Assembly: GCA_035573675.1 (NCBI GenBank)
Contig: DATMAB010000027.1
Location: 124,001-188,000, forward strand
Reading direction: 5' to 3'
DNA length: 64,000 bases
Source: Terriglobales bacterium
Lineage (GTDB): Bacteria; Acidobacteriota; Terriglobia; Terriglobales; Acidobacteriaceae
Below, one piece after another: positions 34,661 to 40,670 of the stretch (positions are counted from its first letter, which is position 1; each line of letters opens with the position of its first letter). A model generated the notes under the pieces. The model searched no databases. It was not told the origin of the DNA and worked only from the letters and a program-made list of their open reading frames with translations. Position numbers and translations under genes: made by a program.

Positions 34661-35608
34661 CTATTTTCCGCCGGTCTTTTCGTTCAGATGCCCGTGCGGC
34701 CGGTAGCCCATAGGTTTCTTGGTGAGGTCCTTGTAGATCATCTCGATGAAGCTGTCGGCCTTGATGAACTCCCAGCTCCAGGAGTCGAATTTCGCCAGGA
34801 CTTTTTCCTTCTTGAGCTGGTCGAGCGACTTGCCCTGTTTGATGCCGGCTTCGACGATGTTCAGGCTCTCGGTCAACATGGCGTGGAAGGTTTTGAGGTC
34901 GTCCACGGTTGCCAATGGACCGTGGCCGGGGATGATTTTCGTGTCGGGCCTAGCTTCCTTCAGCACGCTCTCCACAGCAGCGATGTAGCCGCGCACCGAG
35001 CCGCCGCTATCCAGGTCGATAAACGGGAACACCTTGTTGAAGAAGTCGTCGCCCATGTGGATGACGTTCGACTGGGTGAAGTAGACGACCGTATCGCCGT
35101 CGGTGTGGGCGTGCGGGGTGTGGATGCCGCGGATGTCCTCGCCGTTCAGATGAATAGTGGCGCGCTCGCTGAAGGTGATGACCGGCAGGGCATGTTTTGG
35201 AGTGGGCGTATTGGGCTGGTTGTCGAAGCGTGTGTCCATCTCCATGCGCTTGCGCACGTTCTCCTGCGCCAGGATGGTGGCGGTCTTGCCGAAAACCTTG
35301 TTGCCGTGGGTGTGGTCGCCGTGCCAGTGAGTGTTCAGGACGAAGCGCACGGGCTTGTCTGTGATGCCGGCCAGCGCCGCCTGGATCTTGGGCACCAGGG
35401 GTTCGAACTCGTCGTCCACGAGCACGATGCCGTCCTCGCCCACGCTCACGCCGATGTTGCCGCCGGCGAATCCGCCGACGCCATAAAGCATGTAGATGTT
35501 GCCCGCTACCTTCTGCGCCCTGATCTCGATCTTCGACCAGTCAGGCTGCTGGGCGCCAGCCACCACGCACAGTAGTGCTTGAATGAAAACCGGCACGGCT
35601 TTCCGCAT
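34661..35608 (-). CDS. Exported metallo-beta-lactamase-fold hydrolase, copy A
   Basis: The 315-residue protein has a signal peptide (VPVFIQALLCVVAGAQQ) and a GAGGTGA ribosome site. The MBL fold shows VLVDDEFEPL, the metal motif NTHWHGDHTHGN, HLNGEDIRGIHTPHAHTDGDTVVYF (third His and bridging Asp) and IIPGHGPLATVDDL. Substrate unknown; relatives include subclass B3-like and quinoprotein-associated hydrolases. It is clearly paralogous to 37544-38485 (same order of motifs and similar C-terminal YKDLTKKPMGYRPHGH versus YASLTQQPAGYHNHGH). Confidence 0.88.
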   Translation of the reverse strand: MRKAVPVFIQALLCVVAGAQQPDWSKIEIRAQKVAGNIYMLYGVGGFAGGNIGVSVGEDGIVLVDDEFEPLVPKIQAALAGITDKPVRFVLNTHWHGDHTHGNKVFGKTATILAQENVRKRMEMDTRFDNQPNTPTPKHALPVITFSERATIHLNGEDIRGIHTPHAHTDGDTVVYFTQSNVIHMGDDFFNKVFPFIDLDSGGSVRGYIAAVESVLKEARPDTKIIPGHGPLATVDDLKTFHAMLTESLNIVEAGIKQGKSLDQLKKEKVLAKFDSWSWEFIKADSFIEMIYKDLTKKPMGYRPHGHLNEKTGGK

Positions 35609-35675: not shown

Positions 35676-36263
35676 CTAGCAGTCATGAATCTTCCGGATG
35701 AGTACATTGAAATACGGGCACACTCGCGAGATGACATCCAATCGGGCTGCGCGAGCAATCTCTGCACATACTTGGGCATCATAGGGAAGTCCCGCCTGTG
35801 AGAGCATATCTGTTAATCGCTGCTTGGGCCCGGATATGTCTTCTGGGTTTTCTCGAAGACCGGTGGCGTCTTTCCCCACCCCTCTCCGTGATCGGCGCAC
35901 AGAATTGATGGCCTCCTCATCGGCCAATAGGAGTGTTTCCATCGCTCGACGGACTGCGTGAAAGCCCACGCCATCCGGAAAGGAAAAAACGCGCCCTTGG
36001 ATTCTGCGCTGTAACGCCTGTTCCACTTCGATTGGGTTCTTATTGTCGGCATCACACACAACCAGTGCCTTCGCGACAGGGCCACCTTGTAGTGAATGTT
36101 CAAGATCTTCCAACAATGCTGGATAGAGCTTCTTTAGATTGGGGAGACCACCGCAAGACCGGGAAACAATCCTGACCTGTGGATTGGCGATTCTTCTTAT
36201 GAGTTCTTCAAATACTGCTGCATCGTAAGCGCCTTCCACAATCAGGCCATAACTATTCGGCAC
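35676..36263 (-). CDS. TOPRIM-like nuclease candidate (DUF4276-like)
   Basis: In 195 residues: the N-terminal Glu in GLIVEGAYDAAVFEELI (E10), LVVCDADNKN (D71, D73), and METLLLADEEAI (109-119). This E...DxD...ExxLLAD order is that of TOPRIM-like proteins of the DUF4276/RloB group. Its start overlaps the end of the ATPase gene by 11 nt, so the two are translated together. ATPase-TOPRIM pairs (OLD-like, AbiL, PARIS) act in phage defence. Base composition is visibly less GC-rich than the flanks. The exact subfamily is uncertain. Confidence 0.75.
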   Translation of the reverse strand: MPNSYGLIVEGAYDAAVFEELIRRIANPQVRIVSRSCGGLPNLKKLYPALLEDLEHSLQGGPVAKALVVCDADNKNPIEVEQALQRRIQGRVFSFPDGVGFHAVRRAMETLLLADEEAINSVRRSRRGVGKDATGLRENPEDISGPKQRLTDMLSQAGLPYDAQVCAEIARAARLDVISRVCPYFNVLIRKIHDC

Positions 36264-37443
36264 TGCTCAGTGCTCCCGTGTAAAACAAACTCCCCAGACC
36301 CACTTCTTGTCTTTCGAGCAACTTGCGGAGGTGGGACTTGTCACTCGGTCGGGAACACTTTGTGATGCCTTGCTGGCGCTCTACAACGATGAGCTCATCC
36401 AAGTCACATAGATCCACGAGTTGGGGGGAGTGGGTGCTTACGATGATTTGCGCCGACTGCCGGGGCCCCAATTCCTGCTGGACCTGTTTTAGCAGCTCTA
36501 TCAGCGTTTCGAGCAGACGAGGGTGCAGATTGTTTTCCGGTTCCTCGATACAGTAGAGCGGTGCGCCGATGCTTGCTGGAGCCAAAATCATTGACAAGAG
36601 CGCTATGAACGCGAGTTGGCCTTCCGACATCTGCCACGCCAAGATGGGCCTCTTCAGGTGCTTTTCGCGAGAGGCCACAAAAACCGTCTGTTGTTGAGTT
36701 GGCCAAGTAAAGAGATCCTCAAGTTCGGGGAACACGTCCTTCGCGACGCTTTTGATTCTCGCGAAGGCGTCTCCATGCCGCGTTTGCAGATTTAAAAGCC
36801 ATGAGGAGAGGTTATCTCCAAATTCACTAAGGAATTCAGTCGCGGCCGTTGAATTCGCTTGCCGCATGAGCGGCGGTACCAAGCGGTAGAATCGCCAAGA
36901 TCTGACAAACTCGCGAACGGCATTTCCATCCCAATCCGGGATTTCAAACTCAAGGGCCGAGCGCTCGGGTTGGACAATACTCGACAAGACGCGCTGGTCG
37001 ATGTTCTTAAGGACTCTGTCTCCACCGGACTTATCGATAAGGCTGTAGGAATTCTCGGAAGTTCTGAGATTCAATTTCTCATCTAGAACTCTCACCCATC
37101 CTCGAGGATCGCCGATGAGTGTTAGTTTGTAGCTCCAAATTGCCAGTTCCTTTGAACCATGTGCAACTCCTTCGACATCTATCGAAATAGATATTGTGGA
37201 CTCATCACTTCCTTTCCAAGCCACCTCCCAGAATCCGTTTCTCAAGTTGAAGGCGTTCGCAACCCCGCTCAATCCTGGTCCGGGTGTGAGCATGTTTGAC
37301 AGAAAGCGAAAGACATCGATCAAATTGCTCTTCCCCGCCATGTTAGGACCGACTAGGACGTTTCGCAGGCCCAGATTGACCTGAAAGTCCCGAAGCGTTC
37401 GAAAGTTCGTGAGGTGAACCGCCTTAATCATCAATCGCGACAT
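36253..37443 (-). CDS. AAA/ABC-type ATPase (AAA_21/RecF-like), partner of the TOPRIM gene
   Basis: In 396 residues: KAVHLTNFRTLRDFQVNLG start, Walker A GPNMAGKSN (32-40), ABC signature-like MSEGQ (272-276), Walker B LYCIEEPENNLHP (296-308) and H-loop STHSP (336-340). A middle helical/beta insertion separates the halves. ATG 37431 is an alternative start. These ATPases sense a trigger and release or activate a linked nuclease. The gene is AT-richer than its neighbours and lies between two paralogous MBL genes. No methylase or transposase is near. Confidence 0.88.
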   Translation of the reverse strand: MSRLMIKAVHLTNFRTLRDFQVNLGLRNVLVGPNMAGKSNLIDVFRFLSNMLTPGPGLSGVANAFNLRNGFWEVAWKGSDESTISISIDVEGVAHGSKELAIWSYKLTLIGDPRGWVRVLDEKLNLRTSENSYSLIDKSGGDRVLKNIDQRVLSSIVQPERSALEFEIPDWDGNAVREFVRSWRFYRLVPPLMRQANSTAATEFLSEFGDNLSSWLLNLQTRHGDAFARIKSVAKDVFPELEDLFTWPTQQQTVFVASREKHLKRPILAWQMSEGQLAFIALLSMILAPASIGAPLYCIEEPENNLHPRLLETLIELLKQVQQELGPRQSAQIIVSTHSPQLVDLCDLDELIVVERQQGITKCSRPSDKSHLRKLLERQEVGLGSLFYTGALSSAE

Positions 37444-37543: not shown

Positions 37544-38485
37544 TCAGTTCCCCGCCGGCCTCTCCTCCGCATGCCCGTGGTTGTGATACCCGGCGGGCTG
37601 CTGGGTGAGCGAGGCGTAGAGAATCTCGGTGAAATCGTCAGTCTTCAGGAAGCCCTTGCCCCATTTCTCTTCCCAGGGGCTGAGGACCTTTTCCTGCTTC
37701 ATCTGCTCCAGCGTCTTGCCTTGTTTGAGGGCGGCCTCGACTGCGCCGGAGGTGCCGCACAGCATCTCGACGAAGGCCTTCAGGTCGGCCTTACCGGCCA
37801 GCGGGCCGTGGCCGGGGATGATCTTGACGTCGTCCGGCAGCTCGCCCAGGACCCTCTCTCCGTTGGCGATCATGCCCTTCACGCTGCCGCCGTTATCCAC
37901 ATCGATGAAGGGGAAGATTCCGTTGAAGAAGTCGTCGCCCATATGCACGACGTTGGACTTGGTGAAGAACACCACGCTGTCGCCATCGGTATGCCCGTGC
38001 GGGAAGTGAATGGCGCGGATGTCCTCGCCGTTCAGGTGGAGGGTGGCGCGTTCGCTGAAGGTGACGATAGGCAGCGCCTCGGGCTTCGCCGGCTCCACTG
38101 CGCCGAAGCGGGTCTTGCCGCCCGCGGCCAAGCGTTTGCGCACGTTCTCCTGGGCCACGATGGTGCCCAGCTTGGAAAAAGAGGCGTTGCCCCCGGTGTG
38201 GTCGCCGTGCCAGTGCGTGTTCAAGATGAAGCGAACGGGCCTGTCGGAAAGGTTCTTTAGCGCCGCCTGAATCTTGGTTGCCAGGGGCGCGTACTGGTCG
38301 TCCACCACCACGATGCCGTCTTCGCCCACGCTCACTCCGATGTTGCCGCCGCGCCCGGTCAGCATGTAGACGCTGCCCGCCACCGGCTGCACCTTGATCT
38401 CGACCTTTTCCCAGTCCACCTGCTGCGCGGCCGCCATGCCGGCCAGCATCGCCAGCGCCGCCGCGAGTCTTAATGCTTTGTGCAT
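37544..38485 (-). CDS. Exported metallo-beta-lactamase-fold hydrolase, copy B
   Basis: The start is ATG 38485 (MHKALRLAAALAMLAGMAAAQ signal peptide) with GAGGTGAG upstream. It has 313 residues. Motifs are IVVDDQYAPL, NTHWHGDHTGGN, HLNGEDIRAIHFPHGHTDGDSVVFF and IIPGHGPLAGKADL. It is a paralogue of 34661-35608 with the same signal, ribosome site and downstream repeat. The ATPase-TOPRIM pair separates the two copies. Confidence 0.9.
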   Translation of the reverse strand: MHKALRLAAALAMLAGMAAAQQVDWEKVEIKVQPVAGSVYMLTGRGGNIGVSVGEDGIVVVDDQYAPLATKIQAALKNLSDRPVRFILNTHWHGDHTGGNASFSKLGTIVAQENVRKRLAAGGKTRFGAVEPAKPEALPIVTFSERATLHLNGEDIRAIHFPHGHTDGDSVVFFTKSNVVHMGDDFFNGIFPFIDVDNGGSVKGMIANGERVLGELPDDVKIIPGHGPLAGKADLKAFVEMLCGTSGAVEAALKQGKTLEQMKQEKVLSPWEEKWGKGFLKTDDFTEILYASLTQQPAGYHNHGHAEERPAGN

Positions 38486-38559
38486 ACGCTCACCTCGAAG
38501 TCGACGTAGAAAGCCTGCCATTGTAACGGAATTGCGTTTGGTTTCTGGGCACGTCGGCC

Positions 38560-39030
38560 TCAAGCCACCAGCTCGTAAGCCGACGTAATGTCAATCGCCT
38601 TGTACAACGAGCGGTACACCGGACACTTCCGCGCGTAGATTCCGTGGACGCGCTCCACGGTCGCCCGGGCGTCCTCCGGCGCCTTGAGCTTGAGGACCAC
38701 ATGAATGCGTTTGATGACCAGCACACCATCCTCGGATTCAATCTCTCCGCGGACTTCGGCGATCAGGCGGCCGCCCGAGGCATCGATCTGGCGCGCCTCC
38801 AGCGCGCCCGCAAAGGTGCCCATCATTCAGCCACCGGCCGCGGCCACGACGTAATCGAGCGTAGCGGCATGCGGCTCGCCGAGCATGGCCGGGTCCACCT
38901 TGTAGTGCTCAGCGATGGCGCCGTGCACGCTGAAGATGACCGGCTGTGCCTCGCCGGGCAGATAAGCCACGCGCAGGGGGCCGGCACGGCGCTCAATGCG
39001 GACGTTGGAAACATACGCGATGTTCGACAT
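38560..39030 (-). CDS. OsmC-family peroxidase with in-frame TGA (probable selenocysteine) at the catalytic Cys
   Basis: The frame starts at ATG 39030 with AGGAGAAA upstream and runs through a single TGA at 38829-38827 to the stop at 38560: 156 residues. The TGA stands exactly where OsmC proteins have their peroxidatic Cys (AAAGG-U-MMGTFAGALEARQ). The second, resolving Cys is present (RKCPVYRSL). OsmC proteins reduce organic hydroperoxides. A hairpin 19-37 nt after the TGA fits a bacterial SECIS element. If Sec insertion does not occur, this would be a truncated pseudogene; the intact reading frame on both sides argues against that. It follows the hypothetical gene at 39056-40219. Confidence 0.8.
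38790..38808 (-). promoter_or_regulatory. Candidate bacterial SECIS hairpin in the OsmC gene
   Basis: On the minus strand GGCGCGC-TGGAG-GCGCGCC forms a perfect 7-bp stem with a 5-nt loop containing GG. The loop begins 26 nt after the TGA, within the usual distance for bacterial SECIS elements. Confidence 0.6.
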
Positions 39031-39055
39031 GGTCTTTCTCCTGTCTGTTCCCGTC

Positions 39056-40219
39056 TCAGTTGGCGCTTGCCGCGCCCTCGAACAGCAGCCACAGGCTGTC
39101 ATAGGTGACGCGATAGAGCGCGTAGCTGACGGTGGTTGCGCCGACACGGCGGAACAGCAGTTCGCCGACGCTGTCGCCGTCGGAATCCACAGCGTCCACC
39201 AGTTCCAGCCTCGGCACCGATTCCAGCCGCAGATTGTCCGTCACCTGGCTGAACAGGCGGCGCAGCTCGCCGTGCACGTTGACACGCGCCACCACGGTCA
39301 CGTAGCAGGTGCGCTGTTCGCTGATTCCCCTGGCTTGTGCCTTCGCCGCCTGCCGCGCCGTCAGGATCACCTCGGGCTCGTTGTCGTAGTTGACGTCAAA
39401 GGCGCGCACGTGGATGCCCTCGAGCGGCCCGGCCGCGGCGAGCTTCGGCCCGGGACGCGAGGCCAGGTACCGCGTCAACTGCTCCGCAGCCAGCTTTCGC
39501 ATTTCTGCCGTCAGGCGCTCCTGCTCATCGCGGTTCCAGGGGAAGGGGTAGGGCCGCGTGTCGGCGGGCGATTCGTCGGAAATTACGGCCAGGCGCTCGA
39601 CTTCGACGGAGGGCTTGAACTCGACCATCGGTTCCTCCGCCTGCTTTGCTTGCGGCTTGCCGCGGCGCAGGATGGGCCGGTCGGGATCGGGCGGCGGTTC
39701 CGGAACCGGCTCGGACTTGGTCTGCGTCTCGGATGCGCTGCCGCTGGGGCGCCGCAGGCGCGGCGGCTCGTCGCTGGACTCGCCGGGCGCTCGTACCACC
39801 ACCGGCTTCTCCGGGATGGTGGCGCCCGCGGGCTCCCACTCGCCGAGCGCGAACCAGGCGCGGCCCTCCTCCACGGCGCGCCGGACGGTGAAGAATCCTG
39901 CCGGCTCTCCGGAGCGGAAGGCTTCGTATACGATCCCCGGGTCGAGCGCCATGGGACGCGGCGTGGCCTTATAGAGCCCGGCATCGAAATACTGGCCGTG
40001 ATCCAGAATGGTCACCGGAACCAGCCGCGCGCGCACTTTGCCGGCAGCGTCCTTCTGCAGTTCGAGCACGCCCAGGGCGCGCAGGCGTTCAGCGGGCTTG
40101 AGCCGCCGTTGCGCCCCTAGTTGCGTGCAGAGCAGCGCCGCCAGCAGGAGGATGACGGCGCCGCGCCCCCTGCGGTATAAGGGTTGTCCCCGCTTACGGG
40201 CCCCGAGTGAAACCGTCAT
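39056..40219 (-). CDS. Exported protein with Pro-rich linker, unknown function
   Basis: ATG 40219 gives [20 protein letters not shown], then a hydrophobic export segment (AVILLLAALLCTQLGAQ). The mature part has an N-terminal domain (RALGVLELQKDAAGKVRARLVPVTILDHGQYFDAGLY, FTVRRAVEEGRAWFALGEWEP), a Pro/Glu-rich linker, and a C-terminal domain with VRAFDVNYDNEPEVILTARQ and VDAVDSDGDSVGELLFRR, which resembles VCBS/FG-GAP-like Asp-rich repeats. Its start codon overlaps the divergent peroxiredoxin ATG by two bases (CATG). It lies 25 nt before the OsmC gene. No family recognised. Confidence 0.75.
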   Translation of the reverse strand: MTVSLGARKRGQPLYRRGRGAVILLLAALLCTQLGAQRRLKPAERLRALGVLELQKDAAGKVRARLVPVTILDHGQYFDAGLYKATPRPMALDPGIVYEAFRSGEPAGFFTVRRAVEEGRAWFALGEWEPAGATIPEKPVVVRAPGESSDEPPRLRRPSGSASETQTKSEPVPEPPPDPDRPILRRGKPQAKQAEEPMVEFKPSVEVERLAVISDESPADTRPYPFPWNRDEQERLTAEMRKLAAEQLTRYLASRPGPKLAAAGPLEGIHVRAFDVNYDNEPEVILTARQAAKAQARGISEQRTCYVTVVARVNVHGELRRLFSQVTDNLRLESVPRLELVDAVDSDGDSVGELLFRRVGATTVSYALYRVTYDSLWLLFEGAASAN

Positions 40220-40670
40220 GGACGTGAACGACAAGGCTCCTGATTTTAGCCTCCTCGACGAGAATGGCGCCAAAGTGTCCCTGAAGGACTTCCGCGGAAA
40301 GAACGTCGTGCTCTACTTCTTTCCCAAAGCCGACACTCCCGGTTGAACCATCGAAGCGTGCGGGTTCCGCGACGCATACAAGAAGATTCAGAAGGCGGGC
40401 GCCGTGGTACTGGGGGTTTCCGCCGATACGCCGGCGGCGCAGAAGAAGTTCAAGGACAAGTACGACCTGCCCTTCACCCTGCTGTGCGACACGGACAAGA
40501 AGGTCGCCAAGGCCTATGAAGTCCTGAAAGAGAAAAATATGTACGGTCGCAAGGTGATCGGCATCGAGCGCACCACCTTCCTGATCGACCCGGAAGGGAA
40601 GATCACCCGTGTCTTTCCCAAGGTGAAAGCGGACGGGCACGCGGAGGAGGTCCTGGCCGCGCTGTGGTAG
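40218..40670 (+). CDS. BCP-type peroxiredoxin with in-frame TGA (probable selenocysteine) at the peroxidatic Cys
   Basis: From ATG 40218 to 40670 there is one frame interrupted only by TGA at 40344-40346: 150 residues, the usual length of BCP/PrxQ. The TGA replaces the peroxidatic Cys ([18 protein letters not shown]); the resolving Cys five residues on is kept. Other motifs: [70 protein letters not shown]. The enzyme would reduce peroxides using thioredoxin. A hairpin follows the TGA at SECIS distance. Selenocysteine Prx proteins are known in other bacteria. Confidence 0.85.
40356..40375 (+). promoter_or_regulatory. Candidate bacterial SECIS hairpin in the peroxiredoxin gene
   Basis: GCGTGCGG-GTT-CCGC(G)ACGC forms an 8-bp stem with one bulged G. 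The apical GTT lies 18-20 nt after the TGA, matching the spacing expected of bacterial SECIS elements. Confidence 0.5.

Follow-up and report, generated by a model that had tools for sequence, protein, structure and literature searches.

The window, as the whole 64,000-nucleotide stretch of DNA analysed is called here, lies in contig C27 of a Terriglobales genome of 3.16 Mb that is 99% complete, and holds two neighbouring redox genes, each with an in-frame TGA at its catalytic position. The first, on the minus strand at 38560-39030, encodes an OsmC/Ohr-fold protein of 156 residues, in which the TGA at 38829-38827 falls on residue 68 (context AAAGG-U-MMGTF), the predicted peroxidatic selenocysteine (Sec); the second redox cysteine, Cys136, is retained (RKCPV) and the frame ends on another TGA (38562-38560). 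The second gene, on the plus strand at 40218-40670, encodes a PrxQ/BCP-type peroxiredoxin (Prx) of 150 residues with a single in-frame TGA at 40344-40346 (predicted peroxidatic Sec43, context DTPG-U-TIEACG), the resolving Cys48 being retained. A hypothetical gene lies between the two (39056-40216, minus strand), divergent from Prx and lacking any Pfam or NCBIfam match at E 0.001; its start codon and that of Prx overlap in the CATG at 40217-40220, if it uses that ATG. Each TGA is followed by a hairpin. That of OsmC (38790-38808, minus strand) has 7 bp around UGGAG, with the loop 25 nt after the UGA, and that of Prx (40356-40375, plus strand) has 8 bp with one bulged G and the loop GUU, or GGUUC if the closing pair is open, about 16 nt from UGA to loop.

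An earlier sequence-only reading had taken both genes for probable selenoproteins, stating that TGA replaces the peroxidatic cysteine in each, that the second cysteine of OsmC and the resolving cysteine of Prx are kept in otherwise intact frames, and that hairpins stand at SECIS distance. Frames and homologues bear this out, Cys homologues having their peroxidatic cysteine where OsmC residue 68 and Prx residue 43 have TGA, and the hairpins are present as described. The same reading had called random nonsense mutations at both sites a striking coincidence, and a codon-usage score indeed ranks the two TGAs first and second among the 223 of the window's 1534 TGAs that are flanked by at least 40 open codons on each side; Pfam scans of five of the next eight in rank found nothing at E 0.001.

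With cysteine written for Sec, OsmC scores 47.2 bits against Pfam PF02566 (gathering cut-off 27.5) and Prx 150.2 bits against AhpC-TSA PF00578 (cut-off 26). Prx also exceeds the cut-off of 140 of NF006960, at 160.1 bits, and carries the PxxxTxxC/U motif in its Sec form, PxxxTxxU (PKADTPGU), with the resolving cysteine five residues on, which is the spacing from the peroxidatic cysteine that characterises PrxQ/BCP. Sequence matches of OsmC to the PDB are weak (none at E 0.01 with the single sequence, best E 0.03 with a profile), so its fold was settled by structure search: the AlphaFold model, of mean pLDDT 89.8, matches OsmC/Ohr structures with a TM-score of 0.75 to 2onf_A and of 0.59-0.75 by query length among the 50 matches listed. 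Against NF041052, the NCBI model for OsmC selenoproteins, the window protein reaches 19.9 bits, below the cut-off of 95. At E 0.001 this model matches 4 of 21 close members of the subfamily (best E 3.1e-05) and 5 of 15 distant ones (best E 1.7e-07), and over 199 genomes of the phylum its cut-off is passed in one, by a stop-free row. The genome has four more OsmC-family genes, none with an internal stop, so the cell would not depend on the Sec form alone.

The surroundings of the pair recur in the sister species G272, where the order is panB, panC, mpg, DUF885, Prx, hypothetical gene, OsmC and two MBL-fold genes, and where both frames are kept with a single TGA each; the further disruption in a sister strain that would have spoken against selenoproteins is thus not seen. 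The two MBL-fold genes, at 34661-35608 and 37544-38563 in the window, are in tandem in the sister species. Between them the window has an AAA_21 and DUF4276 pair (35676-37443) that resembles the PADLOC candidate defence system HEC-01 (193.2 and 33.3 bits) and looks inserted, since no such pair separates the MBL genes of the sister species. The stretch from OsmC to the MBL gene measures about 1.75 kb in the sister locus (G272:C182, 6469-8222) and almost nothing in the window.

The sequence-only reading went on to propose a Sec-dependent peroxide-defence cluster, with the DUF885 and MBL genes as its neighbours; on such a view the two genes would stay adjacent through joint action, DUF885 and MBL belonging to the unit. 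Both genomes of the genus seen do share the arrangement, with its DUF885 and MBL genes, and in another family four Sec-OsmC loci (L027, L029, L031 and L032) include a redoxin gene whose in-frame TGA lies in the motif UPFC. However, OsmC and Prx lie on opposite strands, and in 12 Sec-OsmC neighbourhoods besides the window (L123, L124 and L126-L135) this Prx adjoins OsmC only in L123, that of the sister species; L129 has a redoxin of 29% identity beside OsmC, the sole gene of the window's block seen there outside the genus, and, barring frames that overlap OsmC, no neighbour is common to more than two of the 12 loci. In G147 the two genes are on different contigs. At six further Prx loci in the family (L125 and L136-L140) the hypothetical gene adjoins Prx every time, gatB and mpg are in reach at four each and panC with panB at three, and OsmC is near Prx at none. 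Neither the conserved adjacency nor the common strand of a cluster or operon is found, the pair adjoining, among the loci read, only in the window and its sister species, and a cluster maintained by joint action is improbable. With the genes on opposite strands, their closeness looks like a chance event at genus level rather than an operon; the simplest account is that OsmC was added, within the genus, to a Prx block that is older. Neighbourhood was also considered as a clue to the function of OsmC and was set aside, nothing being shared across loci.

The machinery for Sec insertion is complete in the genome that holds the window. All four components whose search had been suggested as a check are found, namely selA (564.8 bits), selB (357.6 bits), selD (369.2 bits) and a tRNA-Sec with a TCA anticodon (69 bits against RF01852). 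The selD gene has an in-frame TGA of its own near the N-terminus, which we take to be where other SelD proteins carry a catalytic Cys or Sec.

Conservation of the codon was followed in a class sample of 299 genomes and in a wider scan of named genomes, the site codon being read in fetched rows, while elsewhere one TGA inside a match is a program count. OsmC gives 72 rows in 65 of the 299 class genomes: 65 contain exactly one TGA, four are complete and stop-free with TGC at the site, two are partial and end short of it, and one, in G104, is a decayed fragment with three stops. Distinct fetched class loci have TGA in 46 cases and TGC in four. The wider scan adds 79 TGA and one TGT among the best 80 of 193 confirmed OsmC loci, with a bias against TGA in that one of the two search patterns required a Cys codon at the site. 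By record label these TGA loci span seven phyla (Acidobacteriota 48, Gemmatimonadota 16, Thermodesulfobacteriota 4, Actinomycetota 4, Chloroflexota 2, Nitrospirota 1, Poribacteria 1, unplaced 3) and the lone TGT locus is from Thermodesulfobacteriota, though single labels may be wrong because most of the records are metagenome bins. Nineteen of the best 80 duplicate class-sample rows; with both scans joined and each row counted once, 98 rows reach 50% identity or more, and 97 of them have TGA at the site. The second redox cysteine is kept in every row looked at, 50/50 in one set (17 as CPL, read from sequence) and 92/92 in the set compared for the hairpin.

Prx is matched in 296 of the 299 class genomes, and of the 50 rows read at the site 32 have TGA and 18 a Cys codon. 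Four redoxin rows that are distant (E above 1e-15) were removed from this set before counting, as were repeat copies of the loci of the window and its sister species. The set consists of the nearest matches to the window's protein, Cys forms of other families being under-sampled. Within the family the tree places Cys rows in the midst of Sec rows, which takes four changes at the fewest, two of these Sec/Cys changes being forced by the starred branches alone; the direction of change is left unproved by the tree, because its root was not inferred. The resolving cysteine is absent from 22 of the 32 Sec rows versus none of the 18 Cys rows, bare counts that are clustered by descent, and independent pairs in the tree (two starred, four on all branches) give no significance to a link between Sec and the absence of this cysteine. 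One Cys row, L069 (G233), reads TGT there, and after it comes a Sec-type hairpin that is nearly intact in sequence and in pairs but has a folding energy no lower than its null; this suggests a relic SECIS after a recent Sec-to-Cys change. For both genes, therefore, the alignment of homologues that had been called for finds the position occupied by TGA or by a Cys codon in the rows read, which is the pattern of a selenoprotein, an in-frame UGA at a conserved catalytic cysteine with Cys in some homologues.

The hairpins are conserved beyond what the encoded proteins impose. In OsmC, positions 18-24 after the UGA pair with 36-30, and folding adds a U-G pair that leaves the loop GGA (-15.9 kcal/mol for the 23-nt stretch). 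Of the 637 pair cells that 91 distinct Sec rows provide, 582 are kept, against 396 (sd 10, maximum 427) in 1000 synonymous-codon shuffles, and 87 of the 91 rows have all five inner pairs, where 7.7 would be expected (maximum 20). Seven Gemmatimonadota rows have a compensatory change from C-G to U-A, one side of which turns Ala into Val while the other is synonymous; the rows being related, this may be one event. In the lone TGT row of at least 50% identity the stem is gone (2/7 pairs), and four distant Cys rows pair in 19/28 cells (null 15.5, sd 2.0). In Prx, 204 of the 256 pair cells of the 32 Sec rows are kept, where synonymous shuffling leaves 159.1 (sd 5.2, maximum 175), and the Cys rows keep 111 of 144 against 102.8 (sd 4.1), 2 sd above their own null. 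None of the 18 Sec rows below 64% identity forms all eight pairs of the window, and as a group they pair in 105 of 144 cells (null 78.0, sd 3.8). The glycine codon of the Prx loop is GGG in 14/14 Sec rows with Gly there and in 2/15 Cys rows. This conservation of pairs in both genes supports the SECIS role that the sequence-only reading had assigned to the hairpins.

Two other measures of the hairpins were tried and rejected. Published bSECIS rules (PMC13188914) ask for a loop of 3-9 nt with G in its first two positions, a stem of 4-16 bp, a spacing of 16-37 nt and -7.5 kcal/mol or lower, and both window hairpins lie within these limits (-14.5 and -10.0 kcal/mol), Prx at the lower limit of spacing. 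As coded here, the rules pass 17/32 Sec and 3/18 Cys rows of Prx, and in OsmC 44/46 Sec rows and the 4/4 Cys rows too, so that they are a weak classifier of Sec and Cys on these rows and not specific, and pair conservation carries the weight. Folding energy is not unusual for the two 50-nt stretches of the window (z -0.37 and -1.50) and separates Sec from Cys rows poorly when set against synonymous shuffles; tested against dinucleotide or synonymous shuffles it gives no discrimination in DNA as GC-rich as this, and tests of named pairs were used instead.

The TGA state tracks selA, which was called at E 1e-40 in 221 of the 299 class genomes (217 over the family cut-off). It is present in 58/60 genomes with an OsmC TGA, the two exceptions being 79 and 81% complete, and in 0/3 with Cys-only OsmC. 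For Prx, compared in 149 of the 296 matching genomes, among the matches listed, and with G192, which has both kinds, counted as TGA, selA is found in 39/40 TGA genomes (the exception is 75% complete) and in 56/109 whose listed Prx is stop-free, so that selA does not imply a Sec-Prx. Within the window's family, for which 67 of 74 genomes entered the comparison, the contrast is 12/12 with TGA versus 6/55 with stop-free Prx. A reading of UGA as some other residue, or by general readthrough, is very unlikely given this co-occurrence, the SECIS hairpins in both genes, a site that holds TGA or a Cys codon in the rows read, and an OsmC stop that is itself a TGA and must terminate. That both genes are decayed pseudogenes or products of sequencing error, though conceivable for any single TGA alone and exemplified by the decayed OsmC fragment of G104, is scarcely credible when the codon recurs at an identical residue across tens of species, in proteins that are otherwise conserved, beside complete Sec machinery and compensated hairpins.

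With machinery, conserved codon, hairpins and co-occurrence with selA all pointing the same way, as the sequence-only reading had supposed, OsmC and Prx almost certainly both encode functional selenoproteins. In the bacterial Sec pathway SelD makes selenophosphate, SelA converts Ser-tRNA-Sec into Sec-tRNA-Sec, and SelB delivers the latter at a UGA followed by a hairpin. Bound to the hairpin just past each in-frame UGA, SelB would here supply the ribosome with Sec, so that translation continues instead of ending. In Prx, Sec43 would then attack the peroxide, and the selenenic acid would probably be resolved by Cys48 before reduction by a thioredoxin-type donor. Ohr/OsmC proteins work by a two-thiol cycle in which one cysteine attacks and a second resolves; with the Ohr/OsmC fold match and the second cysteine in every row, the pair Sec68 and Cys136 fits this cycle, Sec68 presumably attacking an organic or lipid hydroperoxide and Cys136 resolving. 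We infer Sec insertion itself from the sequences, as we do the substrates, the electron donors and any joint action of OsmC and Prx.

Selenium use in this genome appears to extend beyond the pair. One TGA occurs in five of its nine AhpC-TSA loci, and the four besides Prx (L238-L241) lie at C27:191480-191965, about 3.5 kb past the right end of the window, at C12:111522-112064, near 253759 in C15 and near 88347 in C7, their TGA contexts being TPTU, TGGU, UPNC and UPFG. Among relatives of two of them (L238 and L239), 22/37 and 35/38 match rows have one TGA by program count. From a search that covered selA, selB, selD, tRNA-Sec and the OsmC and AhpC-TSA families, the genome would have at least seven selenoprotein candidates, namely OsmC, Prx, SelD and the four further AhpC-TSA proteins. 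An annotation unaware of Sec would truncate OsmC and Prx at the UGA. The five AhpC-TSA loci with TGA point to a peroxide chemistry that makes wider use of selenium than would be expected from the three selenoprotein genes that the accessible part of PMC12013277 tabulates for an Acidobacteriota genome; PMC1794560, as far as its accessible text goes, gives Acidobacteria four selenoproteins of three families.

OsmC-like proteins and Prx are both listed selenoprotein families in the portions available of PMC1088965, PMC9312934, PMC13188914 and PMC2398784. A full-text search on OsmC selenoproteins and on Acidobacteriota selenoproteins, with subscription literature outside its scope, returned no listing naming the window's OsmC subfamily, and no paper where OsmC, selenoproteins and Acidobacteria were combined. 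The Sec-OsmC redox motif is UxxT in the available text of PMC1088965 and PMC13188914, whereas the window protein has UxxG (U-M-M-G-T), so that it is set apart from the Sargasso Sea OsmC-like protein (PMC1088965) by published motif as well as by its NF041052 score. Sec is the rule in the window's subfamily, whereas the Sargasso table, in the part of PMC1088965 available, has three Sec and ten Cys OsmC-like sequences. Otherwise the Sargasso Sea selenoprotein (PF02566, NF041052) and the window's OsmC are alike in family, in having Sec at the catalytic cysteine and in a SECIS directly downstream. On balance we favour an OsmC subfamily that lies outside the NCBI model, in which Sec is practically obligatory and one common SECIS constrains even the protein sequence, while the Sec-Prx of the same bacteria has been drifting towards a one-Sec mechanism and has reverted to Cys within the family. 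If so, the OsmC subfamily would form a line of peroxidases bound to selenium, and, being near-obligate for Sec and far below the NCBI model, would offer a clean test of the benefit of Sec in a peroxidase; the Sec-to-Cys changes in Prx, one of which has a relic SECIS, would provide natural experiments.

A Sec peroxiredoxin is reportedly known from Eubacterium acidaminophilum. The window's Prx is an ordinary member of the Sec peroxiredoxins (COG1225/Bcp, TxxU), of PrxQ/BCP type. Its PxxxTxxU is the Prx motif given in the accessible part of PMC13188914, and the portion available of PMC1794560 counts five Cys-to-Sec events in Prx and no Sec-to-Cys event. It stands out only in that many relatives have lost the resolving cysteine and that Cys rows are nested among the Sec rows.
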